Assembly: GCA_019689635.1 (NCBI GenBank) | Contig: JADGHB010000007.1 | Coordinates: 1-64,000, forward strand | Reading direction: 5' to 3' | Source: Nevskia sp. | GTDB taxonomy: Bacteria; Pseudomonadota; Gammaproteobacteria; Nevskiales; Nevskiaceae | Length of the DNA: 64,000 bases | Translations under genes and position numbers: made by a program | Notes under the pieces: model-generated | What the model was told of the DNA's origin: nothing | Seen by the model: only the letters and a program-made list of their open reading frames with translations | Database searches by the model: none | Shown: piece by piece, positions 13,080 through 61,370 of the stretch | Numbering within the stretch: position 1 is the first letter of the stretch | How the letters are laid out: every line of letters begins with the position of its first letter

Positions 13080-13850
13080 TCAAGCGGCGCAGTTGGCGGG
13101 ATTCGGGATGGGATCGACGTGGAGGAAATGCGGCTCTTGCGGAAGCAAGAGGCTGGTGCCGTCGGGCAGGGTCAGCAGATACTGGCCGACTTCGAGCACG
13201 AAACTGCCTTTGGGCGTGTTGACCACGATGCTGTGGGCATACACCGTCGTCACCAGCCCGCCGAGCGCGGATACGCCGGGCGGCAGCACTTCGGCCAGCA
13301 CCGGGTCGGTGGCGCAGCTCTCGTCGCAGATCACCGCCAGGTAATCGGTGCCGCGGATGCCGATGGTGGCCACTGGCGTGGCGACCTGGTATTCCTCGTG
13401 GTTGATTTTGCCGATCAGGCCGCTGATGGTCCGGAATCCGCCCTTGAGCAGTCGGAAGAAGGCATGCGAGCCGCTGCTCGTGGCGGCCGGCGCGGGCGTC
13501 AGCGGCGGCGGGTTTTGCGCTGCTGCGGACACGGGTGGCGCGGGCGGTGCCGCCGGCGCGCCGCCGGTGTTGTCGAGGTAGCCGCTGATCTCGAAGCGGC
13601 TGTTGGGGCGCAGCAGAAAGAATGCGCCGTCGCTGAACTTGAGATCGAGATAGCTGCTGGCGCCGGAGGCGATCACTTCGCCGGAATAGACCGCATCGCC
13701 CTTGGCCAGGGCGCGGATGCTGCCGTCGGTGGCCGTGGCGGTGCCGCGGCCGGTGAGCAGGATCACCGTCGCGGCCGGCGCCGCCGCGGCCGCGAGCCCC
13801 GGAAGGCACAGCAGCAAAACCGCCAAAAGCCCGCGCAAGCGCGCGCTCAT
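13080..13850 (-). CDS. Secreted FecR-domain protein
   Basis: A 256-residue exported protein: MSARLRGLLAVLLLCLPGLA is a signal peptide with likely cleavage after AAAA. The FecR-like domain starts with VILLTGRGTATATDGSIRAL and continues through GDAVYSGEVIASGASSYLDL, a proline/alanine-rich insert (about 105-130) and TPVATIGIRGTDYLA. Unlike the FecR sensor it has no transmembrane helix or partner sigma factor here. It overlaps the adhesin gene by four bases, so the two are probably made together. The function is unknown; a role at the cell surface is inferred. Confidence 0.82.
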   Translation of the reverse strand: MSARLRGLLAVLLLCLPGLAAAAAPAATVILLTGRGTATATDGSIRALAKGDAVYSGEVIASGASSYLDLKFSDGAFFLLRPNSRFEISGYLDNTGGAPAAPPAPPVSAAAQNPPPLTPAPAATSSGSHAFFRLLKGGFRTISGLIGKINHEEYQVATPVATIGIRGTDYLAVICDESCATDPVLAEVLPPGVSALGGLVTTVYAHSIVVNTPKGSFVLEVGQYLLTLPDGTSLLLPQEPHFLHVDPIPNPANCAA

Positions 13851-16800
13851 GGCGCACCTCCCAAGCCGCAGGAAAGCCCGGGTTGCGAGGAGGTTTTTTG
13901 ATCGATGAGTCCGCGGTTGGCGTGGCTCACCCCGTCGTCGTTGACGTCGCCGGGATTGCTGTCGTAGCCCAGCACGCCTTCGCCCTGGAACTCGGTGTCG
14001 TACAGGTCCTGCAGGACCGGCAGATCCTGGCCGTTGACCTCCGGCGTGCGCAGCACCGCCGCGCCGAGCACGATCACGCGCCCGTTGGTGCCGATCGAAT
14101 CGGGATAGAACGTAGTGCCGCGGCTGGCGAACACGTAGTTGGTGCCCTGCGGACGGATGTTGAAGAACTGCACGCCGTCGCCGACGTGGAGGTCGGCGGT
14201 TTCCAGGCTGCCGCCGTACACGATCGTGGCGATGCCCGCGGCGGTGGGTACGCCGGACAGCGTCAGCACCGCGGCGGGGTCGGTCGGCTGGAAGTCGAGG
14301 AAGATGGCGTTGGCCGCATTGGCCGAGGGCAGCGTGAGCGTGGGCGCCTGGATGTAGAGATAGCCGCCGGAGAGATCGAGGCTGCCGAGAGTGACGCCAC
14401 CCGGCGCGCTGAAGGCCGCGTTCGGCGCGCCGGAAGCCGGCAGCAGCGCCGGCGCGACTGCGCCCAGCGCCGTCAGCAGCCCGGGATCCGCGCCGAAGTC
14501 GGCGGTGCCGTTGCCGACGGTGAGCGCGACGCTGCTCAGGTCGATGGAATTGGCCTGCATCGATACGGCGTTCGCGTCGAGCGTGGAAGGAGCGCCGCTG
14601 CCGTCCACCGCGCCGCTTGCGGTGACATGGACCGCGTTGGCGCCGAGCGCCGAGCCGTCGTCGATGTGGATGTCGGCGCCCTGCAGGCTGAGATCGGAGT
14701 GAGCGTTCAGCCTCGCCTGCGAGAAGCTGATGGCGCCGCCGGCGCTGAGGCTGTAGCCGCTCGCCGCGGCACGCGCGCGCAGTGCGCGGCCGCCGCCGCC
14801 GGCGGTATCCGCGATCGTGCTGTCGGCGATGACGATGTCGCCGCCGGCCTGTGCGGCGAAGTTCTGCGCGAGGATCTGGCTGCCGCTGAGGTCGAGCTTG
14901 CCGCTGCCGGCGGTGAGCGCGACCTCGCTCGCCACGCCGCCGCCGGGGCCGCCCAGCGTGGCGCCGGTCAGCGTGAGATCGGTCGCGCCTTGCAGGGCGA
15001 GGGTCTGACCGCTGGCCTGGGTGGCGTTCAGGCTCAGCGCGCCGGCGGTGGAGGCGAGGCTGAGCTCGCCCGCGGCGCTCAGCGTGACGCTGCCCACGTC
15101 GAGATCCTGGCCCGCGGACAGCGTCAGGTTGTCGCCGCTGACGTTGCCGAACGCGAGGTGGCCGTTCTGCGCCACGAGCTGCACGTCCCCGCTGGCGCTG
15201 ACCGCGCCGACGCCGACGTCGCCGCTCGCGGCGCTCGCGTTCACGGCGCCCGCGGAAGCGGCGAGGTCGCCGGTCGCGATCGAGCCGCCGTCGGCGTGAA
15301 GCGCGATGGTCTGGGCGCCGATGTTGCCGGTGTGCACGAACTGGTCGGCCACCGCGTTCACCTCGAAACTGCCGGCGGAGACCACGTTGCCGAAGGTGTA
15401 GCCGGAATCCGCCGGTGCGCTGGCGATGCTGCCGGAGTAGCCGCCGCTGCCGAGCGTGACGTCGCCGTAGGTCTGACCGCCGCCGGTGCTGTTGGCGCTC
15501 AATGCCAAGGCCTGCACCTGGCCGGCGAGGATCGCACCGGCCGCCGCGTTAAGCGCGACATTGCCGGCCACGGCGGCAAGATTGCCGGCGGTGACGCCGC
15601 CGCCGGCCTGCACGTCGATGTCGCCGATTTCGGCGGTCAGCGCGCCGGTCTGGGCGTTGCCGCCGGCGGTGATCGCGATGCCGGTGAAGTGGCTGCCGTT
15701 CACCGTGGTGGAATGCGTGCCGGTGCTCACGTCGCCGAGCGTGACCGCGCCGCCGGCGTCGAACCGCGCACCGCCGTTGACGGTTACCGCGCCGCCCTGG
15801 ATGTCGCCGCTGCCGGCCTGCACGGAGATGCCGCCGGGTGCGGCGTCGTCGCCGAATTGCACCTTGCCGAACTGCACGCCGTCGCCGGCGGAAAGCACGA
15901 TCGCGCGCGCCGCGCTGCCGCTGCCTAGGCCGCCCGTGAGATCGCCCACCGAAACCCCGTGCGCCGCGGTGACGAAGATGTTGCCGGTGGAATAGATGTC
16001 GCCGGTCGTGACCGCGCCGCCCGAGGAAGTCAGGTTCACGTCGCCGACGCCGACCGGCGCGGTTTCGAAATTCACGCCGCCGGTGGCGAGTTCCTGGGCC
16101 GTGATATCGCCGCCGGCGGAGAGGCTCAGGCCGTCGACCGCGATCACCTTGCCGACGGCGAGCGTGGTGCCGGTGGAAAGATTCGCCGCGCCGCCGGCCG
16201 TGACATCGGCAAGCGTCGCGCCGCCGTGGGCGGCGGAGACGTCGATGTCGCCGCTGCTCGTGGCGAGCGCGGTGCCGACCGCGACGCTGCCGTTCGTGGA
16301 GGCGATGTCGATCGACTGCGCGACGTTCACCGCGACCGTGTTGCTCAACGTGACGTCGTGTCCGGCGTCGATGTTCAGCGTCTGGCTGTGCAGGGCGCCG
16401 CCGGCGAGATTCACCGTGTCGGCAGCGAGCGCGATGCTGTCCGCGGCGCTGCTCGTGCCGGCGGCCAGCGTCACGCCGGTCAAGTCCAGCGTCGTGCCGG
16501 CGCCGAGTATGAGGTGCGGCGCGTACAAGGACAGGCTGGACGCGGACAGCGCGCCGCCGGCTTGCACGTTCAGCGTATCGCCCGCGTCGATGGCGCCGGC
16601 CTGAGCGCTGGTCAGAGTGAGATCGGCGCCGGAGCTAAGCGTCACGTCCTGGCCGCTGATGCCGGAGAAGCCGATGCCGCCGCTCGCGACCTTGACGGTG
16701 ACCGCTTGCGTCGCGGTCAGCGTGCCGAGCTGTACGCCGCCGCTGCCGGATGTCACCGCGATGTTGGCGGCCTGGAGGTCCTGGGTGTTCACCCCGGTTC

Positions 16801-19800
16801 CGCTCAGATTCACGTCGCCGGCGAAGTTCAGGTTTCCGCCGATGCCCAAGGTGCCCCCGCTCGTAAGACTGAGGTTGGTGCCGTTGAGCACCGTGGTCGT
16901 GGGCAGAGTGAAGCTTAAGGTCGAACTCAGATCGAGGTCGTGGCCGTTGAGCGTGGCGCCGTCGAGCGAGAGACTGCCGGCGTCGATCGTGACCGCGCCG
17001 TCCGCGGTGCTGGAATTGAGTTGCGAGCCGTTGAGGTTCACCGCGCCGGTCGTGGCGAGATCGATGGCATTGCCGCCGGTCAACGTCATGCCGTTGGCAA
17101 TGATGCCGGCGCCGTTGTTGCCGGTGAGCGAGAGCGTCTGCGCCGCATCGAGCGTCCAGCCGGCGAAATTCATGCTGTTGCCGAAGGCGAGCGCGATGGA
17201 TTGCGCGTTGAGCTGGGGCGCGCCGAAGTTCGTCGCCGGGGCGGCCGAGCCGCTGTTGCCCGAGCTGGGGTAACCGTTGCGCAGGTATCCCAGCAGCGGA
17301 GGGCCGAGCGCGACCACGCCGGGCAGACTGCTGGTGATCAGGTTTCCGGCATTGACGGTGACGCTGCCCAGGCCGCTGGCGGACAGGCCGAGCACGACGT
17401 CGTTCTGGGCGGAGAGATTCACATTGCCGATCAGCGGGGTCGCGTCGCCGACCGCGGCGAAATAAGCGTCGCCGGCCGCGTTAAACACCGTGCCTGAAGG
17501 CACCAGGGTGGGATCGTCGCTCTGGAAACTCCCGCTTGCCGCCGCGATGCTCACGCCGCCCAGCGCGAGGTCGGCGGCGTGGATCTGGGCTCCGGCCAGA
17601 TAGCGGCCGGAGACCGCCAGCGTGCCGCCGATGTGCAGGCTCGCCGCGGACGTGCTGCCGTCGCCGACCTGGAACTGGGTGGCGTCGCCGAGATAGGTGG
17701 TCGTCGCGTCCCGCAAGGGCGCGGCGTCGGTGCTGCCCGCGAACTGCACGGTCTCGCGATAACGGGCCTCGGGCGCGGCGAGGCCGTCGAGCGTGACGTT
17801 GCCGCTGACGGCGAACTGGCCGGGGCCGGACAGCGTGGCGCTCGCGCCGGCGCCGCGCAGCGTGATGGACTGCAGGCTGACGCTGTCGCTGCCGGCTTGG
17901 GTGAGGATGTCGAGGCTGGCGTGGGCGAACAGCGCGTCGCTGCCGGGGCTGCCGCCGTCGATGGTGCGCGTGACCTGGTAGCTGCTGCCGCCGATGTCCA
18001 CGCCGGATTGGGTGGCGACGCCGCTCACATGCCCGACGGCGCCGCCGTGAGCGGCATCGATCGTGATGGTGCCCGCGCTGAAAGCGTGGGTCTCGATGGT
18101 GGCCGAGGCCAGGCCCACGCCTTCCAGGTCGATCGGTCCGCCGACCTGCGCCGAGCCCTCGCTCGAATCGGTGCGGATGGACAGCGCGACCGCGCCCATC
18201 GACAGATGCCCGCTGTCCAGATGGAAACCGCCGAAGCTCTGGCAAAGCTCGCACACGAATCGGTCCGTGATGGAGCCGCTGCCGGAACCGTTGAACGCGG
18301 TGGCGGTCAGCGTGATGCCGCCGTCCACCGTCACGGAGTTGCCGGCATGGAGGGTGGCCTGGGCCATCGGGTTGGCGGCCTCGTTGACGAAGCCGCTGCC
18401 TCCGCCGCCGGAGAGCTGGATGTCGCCGCGCACGTGGATGCCGTTTGCCGCTTCCACGTCGAGTGTGGCGTAGCTCGAGGCGCTGCTCGCGTGGATGAAA
18501 CCGGTGTCCACGCTCCCGCCAGCCGCATCCAGCGTGAGCGCGGTGCCGCCCGCGGAATAGCCGCTGCCGGTATTGGCGATCCCGATGTCGCCGGTGGCGA
18601 TGTCGCCGCTGCCGGCGTACAGGTAAAGACCTTGACCGCCGGTGATCTTGCCGACCGTGATGTCGCCGCCGGCAAAGACATCGAGAAAGCCGCCGGCATG
18701 GAGGTCGCCGGTTTGCACCGACTCCGGCGACGTCAAATCGATGTTGCGCGCACTCAGGCCGCCGACGTCGATCACGCCGTATTGGCTGCCGCCGATCAGG
18801 GACAGATCGCCGCCGACCTTGATCGAATTGCTCGTGTTGGCGAAACGGATGCCCCCGCCGGAAACGCCGGCGCCGCGCACGAAACTGACCGAGCCCAGGC
18901 CCAGGCCGTTGGCCGGATTGGTGGCGATGCTGCCGATGCCCAGGGTCAGGCTGCCGCAGGTGGTGCAGGCGGTGCCATCCAGGGCGCCGCCCGCGCCGAG
19001 ATCGGCGAGCGTGATGCTGTTCGTGGCGGCCAGCGTGACGTTGGTGCCGGCGTCGAGCTGGCTCTCGATGAAGTTCTGATAGACCGTGGCGTCGCCGCTG
19101 GCGGAGCCGCTGCTGCCGCTGCCGGCGGCGATGGTGATGTTGGTGGGATCGATGACCAGTTGCCCGCCGCGCCCCAGACTGACCGTGCCGAACAGATGCA
19201 GGCTGCCGTGGCCGGACAGCTCGGCCAACCCTCCGCGCGCGCCGCCGGTGGCCGAGATCAGCGCGCCGCGGGCGATATCGGTGTCGTGGCCGGCGATCAC
19301 GCGGATGTCGCCGCCGTGGCCCGCGGCGCCGCCCTCGGCGAGAATCCGCGCGCCCTCGGCGAGAGCGATGTCGTGATCGCCGCGGAGCGCCACGCTGCCG
19401 CCGTCGCCCGCCGCGTTGCTCGCGTCGAGGGTGCCGCTGTTTTCGATGTCGCCGCCGCCGCTGGCGGTCAGCTCGATCTGGCCGTCGTGCTCGGCGATGC
19501 CCTGCGCGCGCACCAGGCCGCTGTTGTTCACCGCACTGCCCACGAGATCGCGTGCGGTGGCGGCGGTCATCAGCACGCGGCCGCCGTCGGCCAGCAGTTC
19601 ACCCGAGTTCGTCACGCCGGCGTGCAGCGCCAGCGTGGCCCGGTCCACCGCGAAACTGATCAGGCCATCGCCGTCGAGATCCAGGGTCATGGCGCTTCCG
19701 GAGGCCAGCACCACCTGGCCCAGCCGTGCCTGGATCAGCCCGCTGTTTTCGACGCGGTCGCCGGAGAGCACCACGAAACCGCCGTCCGCCGCCTTGATGG

Positions 19801-20308
19801 CCCCGGCGTTGGTGACCGCCGCGCCGGGCGCGCCGCCGCCGGTGAAGACGTAGCGGCCGGCCATGAAGTCCTGGTTGCTGATGTCGAGCGTGCTCGCCAC
19901 CAGGCCGCCGACATCGACTTGCGCGCCGGGCGCGAACAGCACGCCGTTGGGATTGATCAGGAACACCCGGCCGTTGGCGAGCAGGCTGCCGAAGATTTCC
20001 GAAGGGGAGCCGCCGATGACGCGGTTGAGCGCCACGCTGCTCGCCGAGGGCTGGACGAACTGCACGTATTCGTTGCCGCCGATGGAGAACTGTTGCCAGT
20101 CGATGATCGCCCGGTTCGTGCTCTGGTTGATGACGGTGCCGTTGGGCGTGGGATTGCCGATGGTGGCCTGGCCGCCGACCACCACGCCGCCGCTGGGTCC
20201 GGCCCAGCCGAGGCCCGGCAGCAGCAGGCCGCCGCCGAGCAGGGCGAAACTGCGCCGGATCGCGGCGGGGATGGGAAGCAGACGCGGGATCGATCCTGAT
20301 TGGCGCAT
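13847..20308 (-). CDS. Giant filamentous-haemagglutinin-like TpsA adhesin
   Basis: A 2153-residue exoprotein of a two-partner secretion system. After a basic signal sequence ending near GLGWAGPSGG, the TPS domain (about 40-300) carries NQSTNRAIIDWQQFSIGGNE, GSPSEIFGSLLANGRVFLIN and NPNGVLFAPGAQVDVGGL. The rest is glycine/alanine/serine-rich beta-helix repeats of the LSAGGDI/TLDAGNSVTL kind. C448/C451 and C686/C689 form two CxxC pairs, and C2147 is near the end. D2121-N2123-D2125-G makes a calcium-loop-like motif at the C-terminus. GAGG precedes ATG 20308. The cognate transporter gene lies 159 bp upstream. Large leftward antisense-looking frames across it are shadows. Confidence 0.93.
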   Translation of the reverse strand: MRQSGSIPRLLPIPAAIRRSFALLGGGLLLPGLGWAGPSGGVVVGGQATIGNPTPNGTVINQSTNRAIIDWQQFSIGGNEYVQFVQPSASSVALNRVIGGSPSEIFGSLLANGRVFLINPNGVLFAPGAQVDVGGLVASTLDISNQDFMAGRYVFTGGGAPGAAVTNAGAIKAADGGFVVLSGDRVENSGLIQARLGQVVLASGSAMTLDLDGDGLISFAVDRATLALHAGVTNSGELLADGGRVLMTAATARDLVGSAVNNSGLVRAQGIAEHDGQIELTASGGGDIENSGTLDASNAAGDGGSVALRGDHDIALAEGARILAEGGAAGHGGDIRVIAGHDTDIARGALISATGGARGGLAELSGHGSLHLFGTVSLGRGGQLVIDPTNITIAAGSGSSGSASGDATVYQNFIESQLDAGTNVTLAATNSITLADLGAGGALDGTACTTCGSLTLGIGSIATNPANGLGLGSVSFVRGAGVSGGGIRFANTSNSIKVGGDLSLIGGSQYGVIDVGGLSARNIDLTSPESVQTGDLHAGGFLDVFAGGDITVGKITGGQGLYLYAGSGDIATGDIGIANTGSGYSAGGTALTLDAAGGSVDTGFIHASSASSYATLDVEAANGIHVRGDIQLSGGGGSGFVNEAANPMAQATLHAGNSVTVDGGITLTATAFNGSGSGSITDRFVCELCQSFGGFHLDSGHLSMGAVALSIRTDSSEGSAQVGGPIDLEGVGLASATIETHAFSAGTITIDAAHGGAVGHVSGVATQSGVDIGGSSYQVTRTIDGGSPGSDALFAHASLDILTQAGSDSVSLQSITLRGAGASATLSGPGQFAVSGNVTLDGLAAPEARYRETVQFAGSTDAAPLRDATTTYLGDATQFQVGDGSTSAASLHIGGTLAVSGRYLAGAQIHAADLALGGVSIAAASGSFQSDDPTLVPSGTVFNAAGDAYFAAVGDATPLIGNVNLSAQNDVVLGLSASGLGSVTVNAGNLITSSLPGVVALGPPLLGYLRNGYPSSGNSGSAAPATNFGAPQLNAQSIALAFGNSMNFAGWTLDAAQTLSLTGNNGAGIIANGMTLTGGNAIDLATTGAVNLNGSQLNSSTADGAVTIDAGSLSLDGATLNGHDLDLSSTLSFTLPTTTVLNGTNLSLTSGGTLGIGGNLNFAGDVNLSGTGVNTQDLQAANIAVTSGSGGVQLGTLTATQAVTVKVASGGIGFSGISGQDVTLSSGADLTLTSAQAGAIDAGDTLNVQAGGALSASSLSLYAPHLILGAGTTLDLTGVTLAAGTSSAADSIALAADTVNLAGGALHSQTLNIDAGHDVTLSNTVAVNVAQSIDIASTNGSVAVGTALATSSGDIDVSAAHGGATLADVTAGGAANLSTGTTLAVGKVIAVDGLSLSAGGDITAQELATGGVNFETAPVGVGDVNLTSSGGAVTTGDIYSTGNIFVTAAHGVSVGDLTGGLGSGSAARAIVLSAGDGVQFGKVQFGDDAAPGGISVQAGSGDIQGGAVTVNGGARFDAGGAVTLGDVSTGTHSTTVNGSHFTGIAITAGGNAQTGALTAEIGDIDVQAGGGVTAGNLAAVAGNVALNAAAGAILAGQVQALALSANSTGGGQTYGDVTLGSGGYSGSIASAPADSGYTFGNVVSAGSFEVNAVADQFVHTGNIGAQTIALHADGGSIATGDLAASAGAVNASAASGDVGVGAVSASGDVQLVAQNGHLAFGNVSGDNLTLSAGQDLDVGSVTLSAAGELSLASTAGALSLNATQASGQTLALQGATDLTLTGATLGGPGGGVASEVALTAGSGKLDLSGSQILAQNFAAQAGGDIVIADSTIADTAGGGGRALRARAAASGYSLSAGGAISFSQARLNAHSDLSLQGADIHIDDGSALGANAVHVTASGAVDGSGAPSTLDANAVSMQANSIDLSSVALTVGNGTADFGADPGLLTALGAVAPALLPASGAPNAAFSAPGGVTLGSLDLSGGYLYIQAPTLTLPSANAANAIFLDFQPTDPAAVLTLSGVPTAAGIATIVYGGSLETADLHVGDGVQFFNIRPQGTNYVFASRGTTFYPDSIGTNGRVIVLGAAVLRTPEVNGQDLPVLQDLYDTEFQGEGVLGYDSNPGDVNDDGVSHANRGLIDQKTSSQPGLSCGLGGAP

Positions 20309-20467
20309 GGCAAGTACCTCAGCACTCGCGCTGAAGAAATCGTAGCGAGCAAGCCCGGCCGCGAGGAGTCAGGCGCGCAGGAACCGCAGCATACCAACGA
20401 GTATGTGAGGATTCCGAGCACCGCACGACGAAGCGGATGGGCTGCGCAGTAGATTTATTCATAAGCC

Positions 20468-22087
20468 TCAGAAGCTGGCCGACAGGGCGGCGTACCAGCG
20501 CCCGTCGTCGCGGCCGTCGCTGACCGGCTTGTGGCCGATGGGATAGTCCCAGTCCAGCTTCAAGTCGAACTTGCGGTAGAGCACGTCGAGGCCCGCGCCG
20601 GCGCTCACCAGGCCGTCGCTGTCATCGGCGCCGGGCGGCAGCTCGAGCCGACGGACCTGGCCGGCATCCGCCTGGATGCGCGGCAGCAAGGTCACCGGCC
20701 CGATGGCGTAAGGGCGGCGCAGTGCGAGACTGCCGAACACGCCGCGGTCGCCGCGCACCTCCGCGGGCGGATAGCCGCGCACGGTGGTCGGACCGCCGAC
20801 GGAAAACTGCTCGGTGTCGGGCAGCGGGTCCGGCGAATAGACGCCGTCGAACTGCGCCAGCAGTTGCAGCCGCGCGGGCAGCGGTTGCAGGTGCTGCAGG
20901 TTCAGCTCCAGGCGCAGGCGCTCGGCGTTGCGCGAGCTCGCCGAGGCCTTGCTGAAATCGCTATGCAGACTGCCGCTCACCTGGGTCACTCCCGAGTCCG
21001 ACCACAGCCGAGTGTAGGTCGCGCCCAGATTCATCAGCGTGATCTCCGTCGCGCTGATCGGCAGGCCACTCAAGTCCGCGTCGGCCTTGGTATAAATCAC
21101 GCCGGCCGTGCCCAGGAAGGAACTGCTGGGCCGTCGCCAGAAGGGCTGGATCAGGCTGAATTGGGCGTTCTCGTTCTTGCCGCCGACCGAAAACGGCGGC
21201 GCCACCTTGAAGCGCGCGTAGCCGAAATTGAGGTCCGCGCGCAGGCCCTTGGACGTCAACGGTGCGTTGTAGTCGAGGTCGCCGTAATTGAGCCGGTTGG
21301 TGGTGGAATGCACGCCGAGCAGCTGCAACTGATCGGCGATCGTCAGCGGGTTGTTGAACGTGACCGAGCCGGCGAGGCGGTACTCGCCGATGTCCTTGCG
21401 GCCGTAGTTGTCGAGGATGAGGTTCGCGTCGAGCGGGTCTTCCTGGGTCTTGATCGTGAGATCGCTGGTTCCGAACGAGGCGCCGGGCTTGAGGATCGCG
21501 CGCGCGGCGAGGCCGGGCAGGGCGTTGAGCGTCTGCAGGTCTTCCTGCAGCGGCGCGGCGCGGTAGACCTCGCCGCTGCGGGTCCTGGTCATGAACCAGT
21601 TGAGCAGGCCGTCGCGATAACGCCGGTTGCCCTCGAAGCCGATGCGGCCGATGCGCCCTTCGATCACTTCCAGCCGCACGACCCCGTTTTCGATTTTCTG
21701 CGCCGGCACCGCCACGCTGGCGAGGCTGTACCCATGGCGGGCGTAGAACTCGGCCACGCGGTCGGCGGCCTGGTAGATCTGGCCCAGCGTGACCGGCTTG
21801 CCCACGACATCCGCCACCAGCGGTGCCAGCACGTCCGCGCCGAACACGGTATTGCCGGAGAACTCGAAGCGCGAGACGACCACCGTGGGGCCCTGTGCCG
21901 GCGCTGCGGCGGACGGCGGCTGGGGCGCGCTGATGGACGGCGCCGGCGGCGGCTTGAGTTCGGGCGGGCGTTTGAGCGTTTCCTCCACGGTTCCCGGCGT
22001 GGTGGGCAGCGGCGGCGCCGCCCATAGGGCGAGCGGCAGCAGCGCCGCAGCGGACAACGCGAACACCAACTTTTCCCGTCCGATCAT
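20468..22087 (-). CDS. TpsB (ShlB/FhaC/HecB-family) outer-membrane transporter
   Basis: A roughly 539-residue Omp85-superfamily pore that recognises and exports the adjacent TpsA. From ATG 22087 it has a signal peptide (LVFALSAAALLPLALWAAPP), a proline-rich linker, and POTRA domains (VVVSRFEFSGNTVFGADVLA; VRLEVIEGRIGRIGFEGNRR). The 16-strand barrel contains the conserved TTVRGYPPAEVRGDRG motif near the end and a terminal aromatic (ALSASF). An upstream in-frame ATG at 22144 is possible, but 22087 gives a better signal peptide and has AGGAG just before it. Confidence 0.95.
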   Translation of the reverse strand: MIGREKLVFALSAAALLPLALWAAPPLPTTPGTVEETLKRPPELKPPPAPSISAPQPPSAAAPAQGPTVVVSRFEFSGNTVFGADVLAPLVADVVGKPVTLGQIYQAADRVAEFYARHGYSLASVAVPAQKIENGVVRLEVIEGRIGRIGFEGNRRYRDGLLNWFMTRTRSGEVYRAAPLQEDLQTLNALPGLAARAILKPGASFGTSDLTIKTQEDPLDANLILDNYGRKDIGEYRLAGSVTFNNPLTIADQLQLLGVHSTTNRLNYGDLDYNAPLTSKGLRADLNFGYARFKVAPPFSVGGKNENAQFSLIQPFWRRPSSSFLGTAGVIYTKADADLSGLPISATEITLMNLGATYTRLWSDSGVTQVSGSLHSDFSKASASSRNAERLRLELNLQHLQPLPARLQLLAQFDGVYSPDPLPDTEQFSVGGPTTVRGYPPAEVRGDRGVFGSLALRRPYAIGPVTLLPRIQADAGQVRRLELPPGADDSDGLVSAGAGLDVLYRKFDLKLDWDYPIGHKPVSDGRDDGRWYAALSASF

Positions 22088-22300
22088 TCTCCTGCCCCCA
22101 CGCAGGAAGAGCGCGCCATGCCTGGCATGACTGTGCGGCTGCACCGTGCGGCTTCGTCGAGCTCCGCCCGGTTTTCATGGGCGAGTATTTCCTCGATCCG
22201 GCGCCGACAGCGTATCAAGCGACTATAGACCAGCCTCCGGGGTCTTCCAAGCCGCGTTTGCGGGGTGGCTCACACTTGCGCCTGTGCCTTGCGTCACGTC

Positions 22301-54419: not shown

Positions 54420-55592
54420 ATGCTTTCCCTCCTGGCCCTGAGCGCGGTGCTCGCGACGAATGCGCCGGCCTATTTCGTGCCGGCCGATGACGACCAGGTG
54501 CTGCAGCGGGTTCCCACGATCGCCGATCCGCGCGTTCGTCACATGGAGTCCTTGCGTGCGCTCCACGAGCGTCGGCCGCAAGATCTTGAGGCCGCGCTCG
54601 CCCTGGCACGGGCCTATCTCGACTATGGTCGCGGCACGGGCGACGCCCGTTATCTCGGCCGCGCCGAGGCCGTGATCGAGCCCTGGCTGCGACTCGCCAC
54701 ACCGCCCTTGGACGTATCGCTGGTGCACGCGACCATCCTTCAGAGCCGGCACGACTTCGATGCCGCGCGCGCGCAGCTCGAAGCCCTCTTGCAGCGCGAC
54801 CCCGGCAACGATCAGGCCTGGCTCACGCTGGCCTCGGTGCAGTTGGTGCAAGGCGAGCCCGAGGCCGCCCGGCGCTCCTGCGCCCGCCTGATCGGCGGTC
54901 CGGATGCGCTGGCGGCGCTGGCCTGTCTGGCGGCGGTCAACATGGTCAACGGACGCGCGGCCGATGCCTACGAGAGTCTTGCGCGGATCGTCGGCCGCGC
55001 GCCGCCAGCCGCACCGCAGGTACGGGCCTGGACCGAGGGCCTGCTCGCCGACGCGGCGAGATCCTTGGGGCACGATGCGCTCGCCGAACGGCATTTCCAG
55101 GCGGGCCTGCAGGCCGCGCCGGGCGACAATTTCCTGCTCGCCGACTATGCCGATCTCCTGCTCGACCTCGGGCGGAATGGCGAGGCGCTGGCCCTGGTCA
55201 AGGATTATTCGGCTTCCGATACCTCGTTCCTGCGTCAAGTGCTGGCCGAGCAGCGACTGGGCCTGCCGCAGGCACAGGCCGATGCCGCGCAGATGGCCGC
55301 CCGTTTCGCGGACGAGGCCCGGCGCGGCAGCCGCCTGTATCTGCGCGAACAGGCCCGCTTCGTACTGGAGGTGGAGCGCGATCCCGCACGCGCGTTGGCG
55401 CTGGCGCAGGACAACTGGCGCAGTCAGCGCGCGCCCGAAGACGCGCGCCTGCTGCTGGCCGCGGCGCTGGCCGCCGATCAGCCGGCGGTCGCAGCGCCGG
55501 CCGTTGCGCTGGTGGAGCGCACGCATCTGGAAGACCCGCGCGTGCGCGAGCTGTTGCGCCGACTGCGGCGTGCGCAGGACGGCGCGCCGTGA
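54420..55592 (+). CDS. TPR-repeat protein of the HupE/DUF4331 locus
   Basis: A 390-residue helical-repeat protein with a short N-terminal signal-like segment (MLSLLALSAVLATNAPAYF) and several TPR-like helices. Examples are ATILQSRHDFDAARAQLEAL, LTLASVQLVQGEPEAARRSC and LLADYADLLLDLGRNGEALA. AGAGAGGAC precedes ATG 54420. Such proteins are protein-binding scaffolds; the partner is unknown. The downstream permease start overlaps its stop (GTGA), so the two are translated together and probably work together. Confidence 0.82.
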   Translation: MLSLLALSAVLATNAPAYFVPADDDQVLQRVPTIADPRVRHMESLRALHERRPQDLEAALALARAYLDYGRGTGDARYLGRAEAVIEPWLRLATPPLDVSLVHATILQSRHDFDAARAQLEALLQRDPGNDQAWLTLASVQLVQGEPEAARRSCARLIGGPDALAALACLAAVNMVNGRAADAYESLARIVGRAPPAAPQVRAWTEGLLADAARSLGHDALAERHFQAGLQAAPGDNFLLADYADLLLDLGRNGEALALVKDYSASDTSFLRQVLAEQRLGLPQAQADAAQMAARFADEARRGSRLYLREQARFVLEVERDPARALALAQDNWRSQRAPEDARLLLAAALAADQPAVAAPAVALVERTHLEDPRVRELLRRLRRAQDGAP

Positions 55593-56779
55593 GGGCGATC
55601 GCGCGCTGGCGCCTGGTTCTGCTCTGCGCGGCCGCCCTGGCGCCTGCGGCCTGGGCGCACAAGGAAAGCGACAGCTATCTGCGGCTGAGACCGGATCCCG
55701 CCGATGGACGGCGGCTGCTGGGGCAGTGGGACATCGCGATCCGCGACCTGGCTTTCGTCCTGCCGCTCGACGCCAATGGCGATGGCGCGGTGACCTGGCG
55801 CGAGCTCAAAGCCCAGCGTCAGGCGATCGAGCGCTACGCGCTGGCGCATCTTTCGATCCGTGGGGACGGTCTCGTCTGTCCGATCCGTGCTTCGGATCAG
55901 GGTGTGGCCGAACACAGCGACGGGGCTTACGACGTCATCGTCTTCGAGGCGCGCTGCGACAAGGACACGCCGCAGAAATTGACCCTGGCGTACGACCTGT
56001 TCGCGGATGTCGATCCCTACCACCGGGCCATCGTCCGTTACAGCGCCGGCCAGCGGACGATCAATGACGTCCTCGGTCCGCAGCACGCCTCGGTCACGCT
56101 GGATCTGCGACATCCCCAGCGGTTGCGACAGTTCTGGGATTTCGTGGTGGACGGGCTGTGGCACATCTGGACGGGGCCGGATCACCTGTTGTTCGTCACC
56201 AGCTTGCTGCTGCCCGCCGTGCTGGTCTGCCGCCGCCGGCCGCGCGCTTGGGGCGACGCCGGCGATTGGCAGCCGGTCACGGGCTTCTGGCCGGCCGCCT
56301 GGGAGCTGATCAAGGTGATTTCCGGCTTCACCGTCTCGCATTCGGTGACGCTCACCGCGTCGGTGCTGGGCTATGTGGACCTGCCCAGCCGCCTGGTGGA
56401 ATCGGGCATCGCCGCCTCGGTGATGGTGGCGGCGCTCAACAATCTGCACCCGCTGGTCACGCGCAGGGCCTGGCTGGTCGCGTTCGGATTCGGATTCATC
56501 CACGGGTTGGGGTTCGCCAGCGCCCTGGCGGGTCTCAGTCTGCCGCCCGCGGCGATGGCGCTGGCGCTCGGCGGTTTCAATCTGGGGGTGGAGCTCGGCC
56601 AGGAGTCGGTGGTCTTGCCGCTGCTGGCGATCGCGTACCTGTTGCGCGGCACCGCATTTTATCGACGCGGCGTGCTGCGCGGCGGTTCGGCGCTGATCGC
56701 GGGTTTGGCCGCGCTCTGGCTGGTGCAACGCGCCCTGGACTGGAACGTGCCGGCGCTGCGCTTCTTGACCCCCGGTTGA
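55589..56779 (+). CDS. HupE/UreJ-like membrane protein with an EF-hand domain
   Basis: A 396-residue protein with a signal peptide ending near AWAHKES. The exported N-terminal domain holds a textbook EF-hand loop (D61, N63, D65, G66, E72 in LDANGDGAVTWRE). A HupE/UreJ-like membrane domain starts near 180, with GLWHIWTGPDHLLFVTSLLL, SGFTVSHSVTLTASVLGYV and GFGFIHGLGFASALAGLSLP. The HxxxxD and FxHGxG patterns are typical of this nickel/cobalt permease family. The NikR gene nearby supports a metal role. The cargo is not proven. Confidence 0.85.
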   Translation: MRAIARWRLVLLCAAALAPAAWAHKESDSYLRLRPDPADGRRLLGQWDIAIRDLAFVLPLDANGDGAVTWRELKAQRQAIERYALAHLSIRGDGLVCPIRASDQGVAEHSDGAYDVIVFEARCDKDTPQKLTLAYDLFADVDPYHRAIVRYSAGQRTINDVLGPQHASVTLDLRHPQRLRQFWDFVVDGLWHIWTGPDHLLFVTSLLLPAVLVCRRRPRAWGDAGDWQPVTGFWPAAWELIKVISGFTVSHSVTLTASVLGYVDLPSRLVESGIAASVMVAALNNLHPLVTRRAWLVAFGFGFIHGLGFASALAGLSLPPAAMALALGGFNLGVELGQESVVLPLLAIAYLLRGTAFYRRGVLRGGSALIAGLAALWLVQRALDWNVPALRFLTPG

Positions 56780-56783
56780 GAAA

Positions 56784-56804
56784 AACCCCGCGCGAGGCGG
56801 GGTT
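56784..56804 (-). terminator. Intrinsic terminator for the lipoprotein/DUF4331 operon
   Basis: AACCCCGC (56784-56791), GCGAG, GCGGGGTT (56797-56804) is a perfect 8-bp stem. Read leftward it is followed by a run of T (GGGGTTTTTCTC), making an intrinsic terminator for the leftward operon. It may also stop the rightward TPR-hupE transcript, which ends just before it. Confidence 0.85.
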
Positions 56805-56834
56805 AAGGGGACGCGGGGACTTGGGAGATTGGCG

Positions 56835-57077
56835 TTACATGAACAGCGAGTCGAACTGGTCGGGATCCTCGGAACTGGTGTCGAGATTCAGAGTATTGAT
56901 GTCCACCGGCAAGGCGGTTTCGGTGGTCTGATTGCGGATCAGATCGATCACGAAGCTGGCCAGCGGTGTTGGGCTCATGTTGCCGTTGCCGGTTCCGTTG
57001 CCGCCGCCGTGTCCGCCTCCGCAGGCGCTCAGCAGAAGGGCGCTAAGCGCTGCCACGATTCGAAGTGTCTTGTGCAT
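56835..57077 (-). CDS. Small lipoprotein next to DUF4331
   Basis: An 80-residue predicted lipoprotein: LRIVAALSALLLSACGGGHG ends in a clear lipobox (LLSAC, lipidated C19). A Gly/Asn-rich linker and an acidic C-terminus (DTSSEDPDQFDSLFM) follow. It is 12 bp downstream of the DUF4331 gene and directly upstream of the terminator, so the two form an operon. The function is unknown; the acidic tail could bind metal or protein. Confidence 0.75.
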   Translation of the reverse strand: MHKTLRIVAALSALLLSACGGGHGGGNGTGNGNMSPTPLASFVIDLIRNQTTETALPVDINTLNLDTSSEDPDQFDSLFM

Positions 57078-57089
57078 GGCGTGGATTCC

Positions 57090-58670
57090 TCAATTGCCGT
57101 CGGCCGGGAAGCCGTTTTGCCCGTTGGGTGAACCGGGAACCGGAGTTTTGAGATACGGAAAGCCGTTGTCGAAATCGGCCGCGCTGACCGATACCCCGTC
57201 CGTGTAAGCGGGATGGCTGCCGTCGGGTTTCTGGTTCGGATCGCTCGCACCCAGCAGCGCGCCCATCGCCACGCGCAGCTCGATGTCCACCACGTCGTCG
57301 CCAGGACGGCGGCCATTGGGGAAGCCGGCCGGGTCGCAACCCGGATTGCTGAGACTGAGCATGCCGGCGTTGGTGAAACATTGCAGCGCACCCAGATTGT
57401 TCTGGCCGCTCGCTGCTGTCGCCGGCACGGCCACGTTGAGTCGCAGCATTTCGCCGGGAACCACGTTGGCCGGCTGATTCACGCCCGGCACGCCGGTCAA
57501 GAACGCGGCGACCAGGTCGTTGCGCGGCGTGGGCGGTACCTTGGCCGCATCGCCGAACAGGGCGTTGAGCAGCACGGGCAGGGTGGGATTCGTCACGTAG
57601 TCCAGGAACTGTGCGTCGTCCTTGGGCTCGGAGGCGTTGAACTTGTCCTTGTCCGTGATGCCGATGACGAGCTCGTTGACCAGCGGCGAAGACAAGCGCG
57701 AGACTTGGGTCCAGGCGCCGCCGGCCACCTCCGGTCCGGTTTGAGGTCCGCCGCTGGCGTTCTGGCCGGTGGCCGGGCCGTTGGGCTTCGGGTTGAACAC
57801 GTGCGCCTGACGCACGCTCGAGGTGGTCCAGGCGCCGATGATGGGGCTTGTGGTTTCTGCGGCGTCCTTACCGTCGGCGGTCAGGCAGGCGACGGGCACC
57901 TCCAACGCCAGTGTGGTGATGTTCTTGTCGCCGATGGTGTTGGGATTGCCACTGGTGTTGCCCAGCGGATTGAGATTGACTAGATCGAAGGCCTCGCCCA
58001 AATTGACCGCGAAACCCTCTTTGCGTTGGCCCACGAATACCTTGCCCGGCGTGGAGCAATCGGGGATGGCGATACTGTAAATGTATTGTGCCGCGTAGGC
58101 GGCATAGTCCGGGATGGACTTTTGACCGATGTTGTCCACGGGTTTGGTGAACACGCTTGCGCCACCGTTGGCGTTCGTCACCGGCATGGCTTTGCCCGAG
58201 CGACGTCCGTCGCGCACCAGCGTCACCGTGTAGGTTTCCGCGCGGTTCAAGGTGGGCGTCGTGCTGTTGCTGGGCGGCAGGTTGATCAGGGGGATCGCCA
58301 GCATCTTGCCGTCACCGGTCGGCACGGTGAGGCCCTGGTAGCTGTTCTGGAAGCGGAACTGGAAGGTGAGGTCCTCGCGGGCGTCGCCGTTGTTGTCGAT
58401 GTTGATCTCGTAGAGCGCGTTGGGATCCAGCGCGAAATAGTTCGGTCCGCCGTAGCTGTCCTGCAAAGGATTGTAGTTGGCCAGAAAGGTCACGTAGCCG
58501 CCGTCGCCGGACAGCGGCCGGTCGTCGCCATAGCTGCGGAACATGTAGAAGTCCGTGCCATCCCAGGTCGGATGCTGGGCGATGAACGGTGCCTCCCGAT
58601 GACTCGAGGCCAAAGCCGCGCCGCCAACCAGCAGAGCGGACAAAACGAACCACAGTCGCGATGGTTTCAT
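57090..58670 (-). CDS. Exported DUF4331-family protein
   Basis: A 526-residue secreted protein of the DUF4331 family. A signal peptide (LWFVLSALLVGGAALA) is followed at once by SSHREAPFIAQHPTWDGTDF and YMFRSYGDDRPLSGDGGYV, the family opening with conserved His and Asp. EINIDNNGDAREDLTFQFRF and GRRPGDDVVDIELRVAMGAL are further hallmarks. The biochemical function is not established. I chose ATG 58670, nine bases after CTGGAGG, over ATG 58679. It is divergent from the TonB receptor and upstream of a lipoprotein gene. Confidence 0.9.
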   Translation of the reverse strand: MKPSRLWFVLSALLVGGAALASSHREAPFIAQHPTWDGTDFYMFRSYGDDRPLSGDGGYVTFLANYNPLQDSYGGPNYFALDPNALYEINIDNNGDAREDLTFQFRFQNSYQGLTVPTGDGKMLAIPLINLPPSNSTTPTLNRAETYTVTLVRDGRRSGKAMPVTNANGGASVFTKPVDNIGQKSIPDYAAYAAQYIYSIAIPDCSTPGKVFVGQRKEGFAVNLGEAFDLVNLNPLGNTSGNPNTIGDKNITTLALEVPVACLTADGKDAAETTSPIIGAWTTSSVRQAHVFNPKPNGPATGQNASGGPQTGPEVAGGAWTQVSRLSSPLVNELVIGITDKDKFNASEPKDDAQFLDYVTNPTLPVLLNALFGDAAKVPPTPRNDLVAAFLTGVPGVNQPANVVPGEMLRLNVAVPATAASGQNNLGALQCFTNAGMLSLSNPGCDPAGFPNGRRPGDDVVDIELRVAMGALLGASDPNQKPDGSHPAYTDGVSVSAADFDNGFPYLKTPVPGSPNGQNGFPADGN

Positions 58671-58716
58671 AGCTCGCATCCTCCAGAGGTTGAACTCCCA
58701 CCGCGCTATACGTCCC

Positions 58717-58761
58717 GTGCAGGCGTTCGGATGCACAGGGCCTGCACGCGACGCGCATCCG
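58717..58761. promoter_or_regulatory. Interleaved inverted repeats between DUF4331 and TonB receptor genes
   Basis: GTGCAGGC (58717-58724), 15 bp, GCCTGCAC (58740-58747) is a perfect inverted repeat. A second one, CGGATGC (58728-58734), 20 bp, GCATCCG (58755-58761), is interleaved with it. The first has nearly the geometry of the E. coli NikR operator (half-sites about two helical turns apart). It lies 46 bp upstream of the DUF4331 start, in the only space available for both promoters. The regulator assignment is inference. Confidence 0.45.
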
Positions 58762-58831
58762 TTCAAAGCCGCGCCCCGTAAAGCGTGTGAAGTTTCGAAA
58801 AATCTGCATACGCGGAGCAGGGGGAACGGGC

Positions 58832-60913
58832 ATGTGGCATCGAGTGCAAAACGTCGTGCGTCTTGGTGCGGCGCTGGCGGTCTGTGCCGCTATGCCCGTT
58901 TTGGCCGACGAGGCGCGGACCGTCGCGCAACTGCCCGGGGTCACGGTGTTGGGCGAGCGTTTCGCCGGCGCTTCCGAATCGGCCACCATGGGCACGGTGT
59001 ACGCGGGCGAATTCCAGGATCTTCCGCTGGCGCGGGTGGGCGAGTTGCTGGAGGTCGTGCCCGGCTTGATCCTGACCCAGCACAGCGGCGAGGGCAAGGC
59101 TAATCAGTATTTCCTGCGCGGATTCAACCTCGATCACGGGACCGATATCTCGGTCAACGTGGACGGAGTGCCGGTCAACCTGCCTTCCCATGCCCACGGC
59201 CAGGGTTATGCCGATCTCAATTTTCTGATTCCCGAGCTGGTCGAGCGGATCGAGTTCCGCAAAGGGCCGTACTACGCGGCCTACGGCGATTTCGCCGCGG
59301 CTGGGGCGCTCGATCTTCGGTATTTCGATCGGCTGCCGGAAAATCTCCTGCAGTTCAGCGGCGGCAGTTTCGGGGATTACCGCGGTTTGTCCGCGGGATC
59401 CGCCGGATTATTCTCCGGCACACTGCTCTATGGCCTGGCCGCGGAGCACTTCGACGGTCCTTTCGCGCATCGCGGTTCCGACAAGGGGACTCTGGTGCTG
59501 CGCTATACCCATGCCGTCGGCGGCGGGCTTGCGCATCTCACCGCGACCGGCTACGACACGCGCTTCAATTCCACCGATCAGATTCCGGCGCGCGCCGTGG
59601 CCCAGGGCCTGATCGGTCCTTTCGATTGCATCGATTGCACCGACGGCGGCCGCAGCTACCGTTATGGACTGACCGGGGATTTGCAGCGTCCGCTGGGGTC
59701 CGGGATTTTTGCGGCCAGCGCTTACGCCTACCGTTACCATCTGAATCTTTACTCCGACTTCACGTATTTCCTGGAAGATCCGGCCAACGGCGACCAGTTC
59801 GAGCAGTACGACAGCCGCAACGTGTATGGCGGGCGCGCCGCCTACGATTTTTCGACCTCCTGGCTGGGGCTGAGATTCGACCACGAGGCTGGCGCCCAGC
59901 TGCGCTTCGACGACATCGATCCCGTTGCGCTCTACGACACGCGCGCGCAACGGCGGCTGAGCGCCGTCAGCGTGGACCAAGTGCAGGAACTGGGCATCGC
60001 CGCCTACGTGCAGAGCACGGTGCACGTCCTGGAGCGATTGCGCCTGCAGCCCGGTCTGCGTGTGGACAGGTATCATTTCAACGTCGAGTCCAACTTTTCG
60101 CAGAACGTCGGGGCGCGTTCCGCCAGCCTCTGGCAGCCCAAGCTCAACCTGATCGCCGGGCCGTTCGCCAAGACCGAATTCTTCGTCAATCTCGGCAAGG
60201 GCTTCCATACCAACGACGCGCGGGGCACGACTCAGACGCTGGTGTTCGACCCCCGCCAGCCGCCGGGCCAGCAGTTCACGCCGACCGCCGCAGTGACGCC
60301 CATCGCCGCGGCACGCGGCCTGGATGTGGGGCTGCGCAGCACGGCCTTGCCAGGCGTGGAGTTCTCGGCCAGTTACTTCATCCTGCATCTGGATTCGGAA
60401 CTGACGTTTTCGGGTGACACGGCGGGCAGCGAGCCGAACGCCGCTTCGACGCGCGAAGGCATCGAGACCGCCTTGAGCTGGAAGCCGCTGGCGGGGCTGG
60501 TCGTGGACGCGAGTTACGCCTATTCGCATGCGCGCTTTCGGGATCCCGATCCGGCCGGACAGCACATCCCGGAAGCGGCGACCAGTGTCGCCGGCCTGAC
60601 GGCGGTATACCGCGATCCCAAGGGGTACGACGCCGAACTCAAGTTCCGCTATTTCGGTCCGCGTCCGCTCACCCAGGATGGCGCCGTGTCCTCGCGCGCG
60701 ACCAAGGTCGTGGATCTCGGCGCCGGATATCTCCTGACACGGCACGTGCGGGTCGGCTTGGAGCTGCTCAACGTCTTCGACAGCCGCGATCACGACATCG
60801 ATTATTTCTACACTTCGCGTCTGCCCGGCGAGCCCGCCGCGGGAGTGGACGATTTCCATTTCCATCCCGTGGAGCCCTTATCCGTACGGGCGGAGCTCAG
60901 TTACCGATACTGA
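58832..60913 (+). CDS. TonB-dependent outer-membrane receptor
   Basis: A 693-residue gated porin. The signal peptide ends near MPVLADEA. The TonB box region and plug read QLPGVTVLGERFAG, VGELLEVVPGLILTQHSGEG, YFLRGFNLDHGTDISVNVDG and a His-containing NLPSHAHGQGYADLNF. The barrel ends in an aromatic (RAELSYRY), with DDFHFHPVEP near the C-terminus. I chose ATG 58832 behind CAGGGGGA over ATG 58787. Its location between DUF4331 and nikR suggests uptake of nickel or a nickel complex; the substrate is unproven. Confidence 0.92.
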   Translation: MWHRVQNVVRLGAALAVCAAMPVLADEARTVAQLPGVTVLGERFAGASESATMGTVYAGEFQDLPLARVGELLEVVPGLILTQHSGEGKANQYFLRGFNLDHGTDISVNVDGVPVNLPSHAHGQGYADLNFLIPELVERIEFRKGPYYAAYGDFAAAGALDLRYFDRLPENLLQFSGGSFGDYRGLSAGSAGLFSGTLLYGLAAEHFDGPFAHRGSDKGTLVLRYTHAVGGGLAHLTATGYDTRFNSTDQIPARAVAQGLIGPFDCIDCTDGGRSYRYGLTGDLQRPLGSGIFAASAYAYRYHLNLYSDFTYFLEDPANGDQFEQYDSRNVYGGRAAYDFSTSWLGLRFDHEAGAQLRFDDIDPVALYDTRAQRRLSAVSVDQVQELGIAAYVQSTVHVLERLRLQPGLRVDRYHFNVESNFSQNVGARSASLWQPKLNLIAGPFAKTEFFVNLGKGFHTNDARGTTQTLVFDPRQPPGQQFTPTAAVTPIAAARGLDVGLRSTALPGVEFSASYFILHLDSELTFSGDTAGSEPNAASTREGIETALSWKPLAGLVVDASYAYSHARFRDPDPAGQHIPEAATSVAGLTAVYRDPKGYDAELKFRYFGPRPLTQDGAVSSRATKVVDLGAGYLLTRHVRVGLELLNVFDSRDHDIDYFYTSRLPGEPAAGVDDFHFHPVEPLSVRAELSYRY

Positions 60914-60923
60914 GACTCCAGGA

Positions 60924-61370
60924 TCAAACCGCCGGCGTATAGTGGACGTGGGCGTCTTCTTCCGGGCCGTGTCGCTGCACCGGCACCAGGTGCAAATGCC
61001 CGTGACTGACGCCGCGCTCCGCGAGCAAGGTATCGGCGTAACGCCGCATGGCTGCGATCCGGCCTTTGAGTAGCTGCACTTCCAGGCAATGATCGGCGTC
61101 CAGATGGACGTGAACGGTCGAAAGGCAGGTCGTGTGGTGACGGTGCTGGTGTTCGGTCAGCCGTTCGGCCAGGCGGCGTTCGTGATGGTTGTAGACGTAG
61201 GTGAGGCTGGCGACGCAATGCCCCTCCTCGGATTCGACGAGTTCGCGCTCCAGCCGCTCGCGCAGCAGGTCGCGAAACGCTTCCGAGCGCTGGGCGTATC
61301 CGTGCGCCTTGGCCCAGGCCTCGAAACGCTCGGCCAGCGCATCGTCCACCGACAGGGTGATTCGGCGCAC
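60924..61370 (-). CDS. nikR: Nickel-responsive regulator NikR
   Basis: A 148-residue nickel sensor with an N-terminal ribbon-helix-helix (RRITLSVDDALAERFEAWAK) and a C-terminal ACT-like domain. From GTG 61370 the Ni ligands fall at H76, H87, H89 and C95 (STVHVHLDADHCLEVQLLKG), the same numbers as in E. coli NikR, which fixes the start. The C-terminus has an extra His-containing tail (HGPEEDAHVHYTPAV). It is convergent with the TonB receptor and represses nickel uptake genes in known systems. Confidence 0.95.
   Translation of the reverse strand: MRRITLSVDDALAERFEAWAKAHGYAQRSEAFRDLLRERLERELVESEEGHCVASLTYVYNHHERRLAERLTEHQHRHHTTCLSTVHVHLDADHCLEVQLLKGRIAAMRRYADTLLAERGVSHGHLHLVPVQRHGPEEDAHVHYTPAV

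Follow-up and report, generated by a model that had tools for sequence, protein, structure and literature searches.

A NikR-linked TonB receptor beside a DUF4331-HupE module: a candidate two-part envelope route for metal import in Nevskia

Introduction

The TonB receptors FrpB4 and FecA3 of Helicobacter pylori are nickel receptors repressed by NikR, and further receptors of this kind have been predicted in proteobacteria. Anglerases are HupE/UreJ-2 permeases whose exported Ang-1 domain has been proposed to feed metal to the permease; in a relative of the permease described below, the domain binds copper with a Kd of 74 nM and nickel with a Kd of 220 nM, and the site prefers copper over nickel (PMC12537917). 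Here we describe a locus in which genes of both kinds lie beside a gene for an exported DUF4331 protein, a family of which we found no mention in the PMC set searched. The locus is part of a 64-kb stretch of Nevskia DNA (the window), from a genome of 2.8 Mb that is 98.5% complete. We argue that two parts, a nickel receptor-NikR pair and a DUF4331-HupE module, may together make up a route for metal import through the cell envelope, and we give this reading a probability of roughly 0.55.

Results

An earlier note on this DNA had named six genes, and all six are present and intact where it placed them, ORF calls and Pfam being in agreement:

54420 to 55592, forward strand: exported TPR protein (TPR_19, E = 2.4e-13), which adjoins HupE in most DUF4331 loci
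55589 to 56779, forward strand: HupE_UreJ_2 permease (PF13795, E = 7.5e-41)
56835 to 57077, reverse strand: small lipoprotein with lipobox LSAC, downstream of DUF4331
57090 to 58670, reverse strand: exported DUF4331 protein (PF14224, E = 1.8e-138)
58599 to 58607, reverse strand: codons for the predicted mature N-terminus Ser-Ser-His (ATCUN-type X-X-His) at a signal-peptidase-consistent site
58671 to 58831, no strand: intergenic region between the divergent DUF4331 and TonB receptor genes
58711 to 58753, no strand: 14-nt inverted repeat CGTCCCGTGCAGGC-N15-GCCTGCACGCGACG within the DUF4331/receptor intergenic region
58785 to 58811, forward strand: NikR box GTGTGA-N15-GCATAC, 10/12 matches to GTATGA-N15-TCATAC
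58832 to 60913, forward strand: TonB-dependent receptor of a nickel-linked subfamily, with plug, barrel, and signal peptide
60924 to 61370, reverse strand: nikR (NikR_C, E = 2e-25), whose longest ORF extends to 61418

The end of the TPR gene overlaps the hupE start by 4 bp, and the two are predicted to form one operon; DUF4331 and the lipoprotein gene, separated by 12 bp, are likewise predicted to share an operon, and lipoprotein homologs are found 3′ of DUF4331 in four other loci (L002, L003, L011, and L028) as well as in relatives of the same genus. The forward tpr-hupE and reverse DUF4331-lipoprotein operons are convergent, and the receptor gene is divergent from DUF4331 and convergent with nikR. 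The most likely starts are ATG 58670 for DUF4331, rather than the long TTG ORF at 58766; GTG 61370 for nikR; and ATG 58832 for the receptor, preferred over GTG 58787 because of a Shine-Dalgarno-like GGGGGA and the signal peptide. DUF4331 is single copy in the genome and its protein has no other Pfam assignment; the receptor has no N-terminal signalling domain. The flanking thyA, folA, mgtE, and DUF815 genes find no match in the loci of relatives, so that no argument from synteny is possible, and neither a cobalamin riboswitch nor any other Rfam match was found at 50-64 kb of the window. Elsewhere in the window (13847-22144) lies a two-partner secretion pair, a 2153-aa TPS-domain exoprotein with a ShlB-type transporter.

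We scanned for NikR boxes with the pattern GTATGA-N14-16-TCATAC, allowing at most 2 mismatches. The box at 58785-58811 is the only one in the window and ends 20 bp 5′ of the receptor ATG. About one such match is expected by chance over 64 kb, so that it is the position of the box which counts; the chance of one in the intergenic region is about 0.0025 under a Markov model of that region. We regard the comparative evidence for a nickel-repressed receptor as strong. Specifically, i) among congeneric receptor orthologs, which are 50-56% identical to the window receptor, the box is perfect in G370, G377, G381, and G376, has 1 mismatch in G382, and has 2 in G374 and G375, so that in this genus NikR-positive genomes with a receptor ortholog show the box in 7/7 cases, and the three box-less orthologs (G372, G379, and G385) all come from NikR-negative genomes (Fisher p ~0.02); ii) more distant relatives of the receptor (~40-47% identity) adjoin NikR in the absence of any DUF4331, one adjacent to a urease operon with a perfect box of its own (G323) and another in a znuABC-tonB-exbB-exbD-receptor-nikR cluster, also with a perfect box (G169); and iii) a NiCoT gene adjoins the NikR-linked receptor in G374. 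The view of the earlier note that receptor and NikR form a nickel-responsive pair is thus strengthened by the box in the promoter, here and in relatives, and we consider it very probable that the pair is a nickel system.

The 58711-58753 palindrome was considered as a NikR site and rejected, since it has the wrong half-sites and the wrong spacing and is absent from relatives; the exact form with 8-nt arms occurs only in the window among the loci examined. Two observations concern related receptors. In G169 (L055, 2496-10238) the ZnuABC-type ABC transporter diverges from the tonB-exbB-exbD-receptor-nikR genes, a candidate for nickel-type use of a ZnuABC-like transporter. In G375 (L086, 11710-13477) a second, divergent TonB receptor lies directly 5′ of the nickel-type receptor and has its own 1-mismatch NikR box at 13451.

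Alignment with E. coli NikR (1q5v) bears out the claim that the four nickel ligands (His, His, His, and Cys) are intact. The protein scores above the cut-offs of PF01402 and PF08753 (ribbon-helix-helix N-domain and NikR_C) and of NCBIfam PRK02967 (165 bits, cut-off 83), and below that of TIGR02793 (142 of 175 bits). The nickel enzymes sought, urease and NiFe hydrogenase, were not found in the 98.5% complete genome. Urease is missing throughout, not merely near the locus as had been noted, and the sole hydrogenase-family match is a Hydrogenase-4/HycE-like large subunit (G000:C93:59772, L067) lacking the nickel cysteine motifs, which led us to reject its PF00374 match as a nickel hydrogenase; it belongs to an energy-converting hydrogenase-related complex. 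Nor was a NicO or NiCoT permease found in the genome.

The earlier note had joined the five envelope genes into one NikR-linked system, and here the comparison speaks otherwise. DUF4331 ranges from Proteobacteria to Actinobacteria, Acidobacteria, and Bacteroidota; 28 of 45 DUF4331 loci contain HupE and 27 a TPR gene, with a more distant TPR gene in 7 others. DUF4331 is present in 31 of 369 gammaproteobacterial genomes, and at least 21 of these have HupE_UreJ_2 no more than 5 kb away from it. NikR is present in 42 of the 369 and accompanies DUF4331 in 5 genomes against 3.5 expected, so that a general genome-wide co-occurrence of the two is rejected; the genome of the window is the only one of the 31 sampled in which they are linked. 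Thus, the suggested association of DUF4331 held for HupE and failed for NikR. We found no NikR box with 2 or fewer mismatches at the unlinked modules of six NikR-positive congeners and none at tpr-hupE in the window, where the one box sits in the divergent intergenic region common to DUF4331 and the receptor. An ECF sigma factor gene lies about 3.5 kb or less from DUF4331 in several loci (L003, L016, L030, L035, L036, L039, and L062). The linkage counts, the lack of boxes in congeners, and the ECF sigma neighbors together indicate that the module is not generally regulated by NikR, and DUF4331, lipoprotein, TPR, and HupE genes form a separate conserved module that is mostly distant from NikR. 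That DUF4331 clusters elsewhere lack metal genes is true only in part: most lack NikR and retain the HupE permease, while roseobacter clusters have neither.

How, then, did module and receptor come to be neighbors in the window? Chance adjacency in this one genome would agree with the large distance between the two units in most congeners, but we think it very improbable. The receptor subfamily is usually single copy, and yet, of the 13 relatives that have both, 6 (G000, G369, G376, G387, G392, and G397) have the receptor at most 10 kb from DUF4331; about 0.1 would be expected by chance, given a single copy of the gene and a genome of 4 Mb. The two are also close in other phyla (Acidobacteria and Bacteroidota, with Fulvivirga and Adhaeribacter) and in G348 and L014, and a receptor fragment lies near DUF4331 on a Comamonadaceae plasmid. 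In a receptor tree, few branches of which are well supported, DUF4331-linked and NikR-linked receptors fall into one mixed subfamily. The module is joined to NikR in four loci, two of which have further nickel/cobalt transporters: the order in Bryobacterales (L032) is CbiM-CbiQ with an ATPase, nikR, DUF4331, TPR, TPR, NicO, and the single locus L014 has two DUF4331 genes together with NikR, receptor, HupE, TPR, NiCoT, and a NicO-like permease. The grouping of module, receptor, and NikR goes beyond chance, since other lineages have the three together again, with the genes arranged differently; the differing orders in the window, G376, and L014 suggest that the locus was repeatedly assembled or rearranged. 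Among nine NikR-positive congeners, a NicO-family match is absent only from G000 (the genome of the window) and G376 (Fisher p ~0.03, with small numbers), and these are the two congeners whose NikR locus includes the module. In G369, which groups in the genus of the window, DUF4331 diverges from a 33%-identical receptor that is followed by a DUF2946 gene (L109/L002). DUF2946 is common near copper genes, and the pair is possibly a copper-type variant.

New in this analysis is the conserved X-X-His start predicted for mature DUF4331. In 44 of 48 sequences X-X-His comes exactly after a signal-peptidase-consistent site, and 3 actinobacterial sequences without a signal peptide begin Met-Ser-Ser-His, from which methionine aminopeptidase is expected to leave a Ser-Ser-His terminus. 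A free N-terminal X-X-His is therefore predicted in 47 of 48 sequences (Ser-Ser-His in the window), positions 1 and 2 being variable and His3 constant; the exception is an L014 DUF4331 with a proline before SSH that should block cleavage there. Such an arrangement is known as ATCUN, an amino-terminal site for Cu and Ni that binds copper at least as readily as nickel, and we predict that the mature N-terminus of DUF4331 is a Cu/Ni site of this type. The structural model is of moderate confidence (pLDDT 74), and residues 1-3 fall below 50, so that the geometry of His3 cannot be read from it. Structure searches recognized no fold relative, with no Foldseek match at E <= 0.001, and the best match in a second look (Z 8.1) was rejected as within the noise for such models.

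DUF4331 could instead be secreted or displayed at the surface and act mainly in something other than metal transport, with a conserved N-terminus needed for folding or anchoring and a HupE that serves it indirectly. On plasmids of Jannaschia, Paracoccus, and Sulfitobacter (L038, L040, and L045) DUF4331 lies beside or inside type II secretion genes, with neither TPR nor HupE nearby, and may be secreted to the outside; the family has many invariant residues besides the N-terminal His; and the ECF sigma linkage fits such a role as well. We nevertheless think this improbable, given the frequency of HupE next to gammaproteobacterial DUF4331 and the retention of a predicted free X-X-His whether a signal peptide or an initiator methionine precedes it.

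The permease is laid out as a signal peptide, an Ang-1 domain with an EF-hand-like loop, and a transmembrane domain. His1 of the mature protein (codon at 55658) directly follows the signal peptide and is found in all aligned sequences whose N-terminus is included; HX5DH (mature H169, D175, and H176), H228, and H282 are invariant in the transmembrane domain. The protein falls below the curated cut-off of classical HupE_UreJ (PF04955, 18.2 of 23 bits) but has HX5DH nonetheless. Its AlphaFold model (pLDDT 89) resembles the Cu-bound Ang-1 domain 9gce in residues 1-152 (Z 13.4, 135 residues aligned). Together with the predicted X-X-His of DUF4331, the His1 and Ang-1 fold support the idea that both are metal-handling envelope proteins.

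Discussion

In our estimate the DUF4331-TPR-HupE module probably imports metal, and its likeliest cargo here is nickel, at slightly better than even odds; copper is the main alternative, especially elsewhere. The module might handle copper, or several metals, in all hosts, with NikR a mere neighbor in a metal-homeostasis island. The lack of a genome-wide DUF4331-NikR association, the unlinked modules without NikR boxes, the preference of Ang-1 for copper over nickel (PMC12537917), and the DUF2946 gene beside the G369 pair would all suit such a module; the fact that it has joined NikR and nickel permeases repeatedly, with the genes differently arranged, would not, nor would the coincidence that the two module-linked congeners are those without a NicO-family permease, and on balance we think it unlikely, if still a serious contender.

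For the import route that we favor, in which nickel receptor and module cooperate, we infer the metal identity of the module, the direction of transport, and the hand-over between proteins; the gene content, NikR box, linkage statistics, N-terminal motifs, and Ang-1 fold come from computation. Besides the points that suit a copper module, the two nickel enzymes sought and not found, the proline of the L014 DUF4331, and the PF04955 score of HupE below the cut-off weigh against this route. Passage of the outer membrane would fall to the NikR-repressed TonB receptor, which would admit nickel in free or chelated form, and the DUF4331-lipoprotein-TPR-HupE module would take over in the periplasm and at the inner membrane. 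The free Ser-Ser-His of DUF4331 would chelate the metal, the lipoprotein and TPR protein would anchor or dock partners, and HupE would capture it with His1 of the Ang-1 domain and pass it along the transmembrane HX5DH His/Asp path, standing in for the missing NiCoT permease of this genome.

We wish to add a broader and more tentative proposal: DUF4331 proteins could be widespread N-terminal X-X-His metal carriers, both exported and cytosolic, that hand Ni(II)/Cu(II) to Ang-1 HupE and in some lineages are coupled to NikR-controlled TonB receptors, completing a nickel route from outer to inner membrane. If so, the recently proposed model of import by anglerases would gain a carrier step. The role of the family can be tested directly, its N-terminus being conserved and predicted to grip metal and its partner often being a metal permease.

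The locus resembles four known systems in part. i) With the Ang-1 anglerase HupE/UreJ-2 (PMC12537917, PDB 9gce) it shares the PF13795 permease, the exported N-terminal fold, and His1 after the signal peptide, but DUF4331 is not mentioned in that work, where NikR and TonB neighbors are reported for DUF4198 and not for Ang-1. ii) With NikR-repressed nickel receptors such as FrpB4 and FecA3 it has in common a TonB receptor, NikR control, and NikR boxes, whereas here the box resembles GTATGA-N15-TCATAC and a DUF4331 module partners the receptor; the nearest solved sequences to the window receptor are BtuB-like, in the plug only. iii) Like the nickel-binding DUF4198 proteins (PMC12537917, PDB 9gcb), DUF4331 is an exported beta protein with an N-terminal metal site, putative in its case, near TonB receptors and NikR, but the His of the site is at position 3 in DUF4331 and at position 1 in DUF4198. 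iv) The NikR-receptor-NiCoT loci of the same genus (e.g. G374, L088) have the same NikR-receptor pair, and differ in that the inner membrane permease there is NiCoT, while here it is HupE accompanied by DUF4331.
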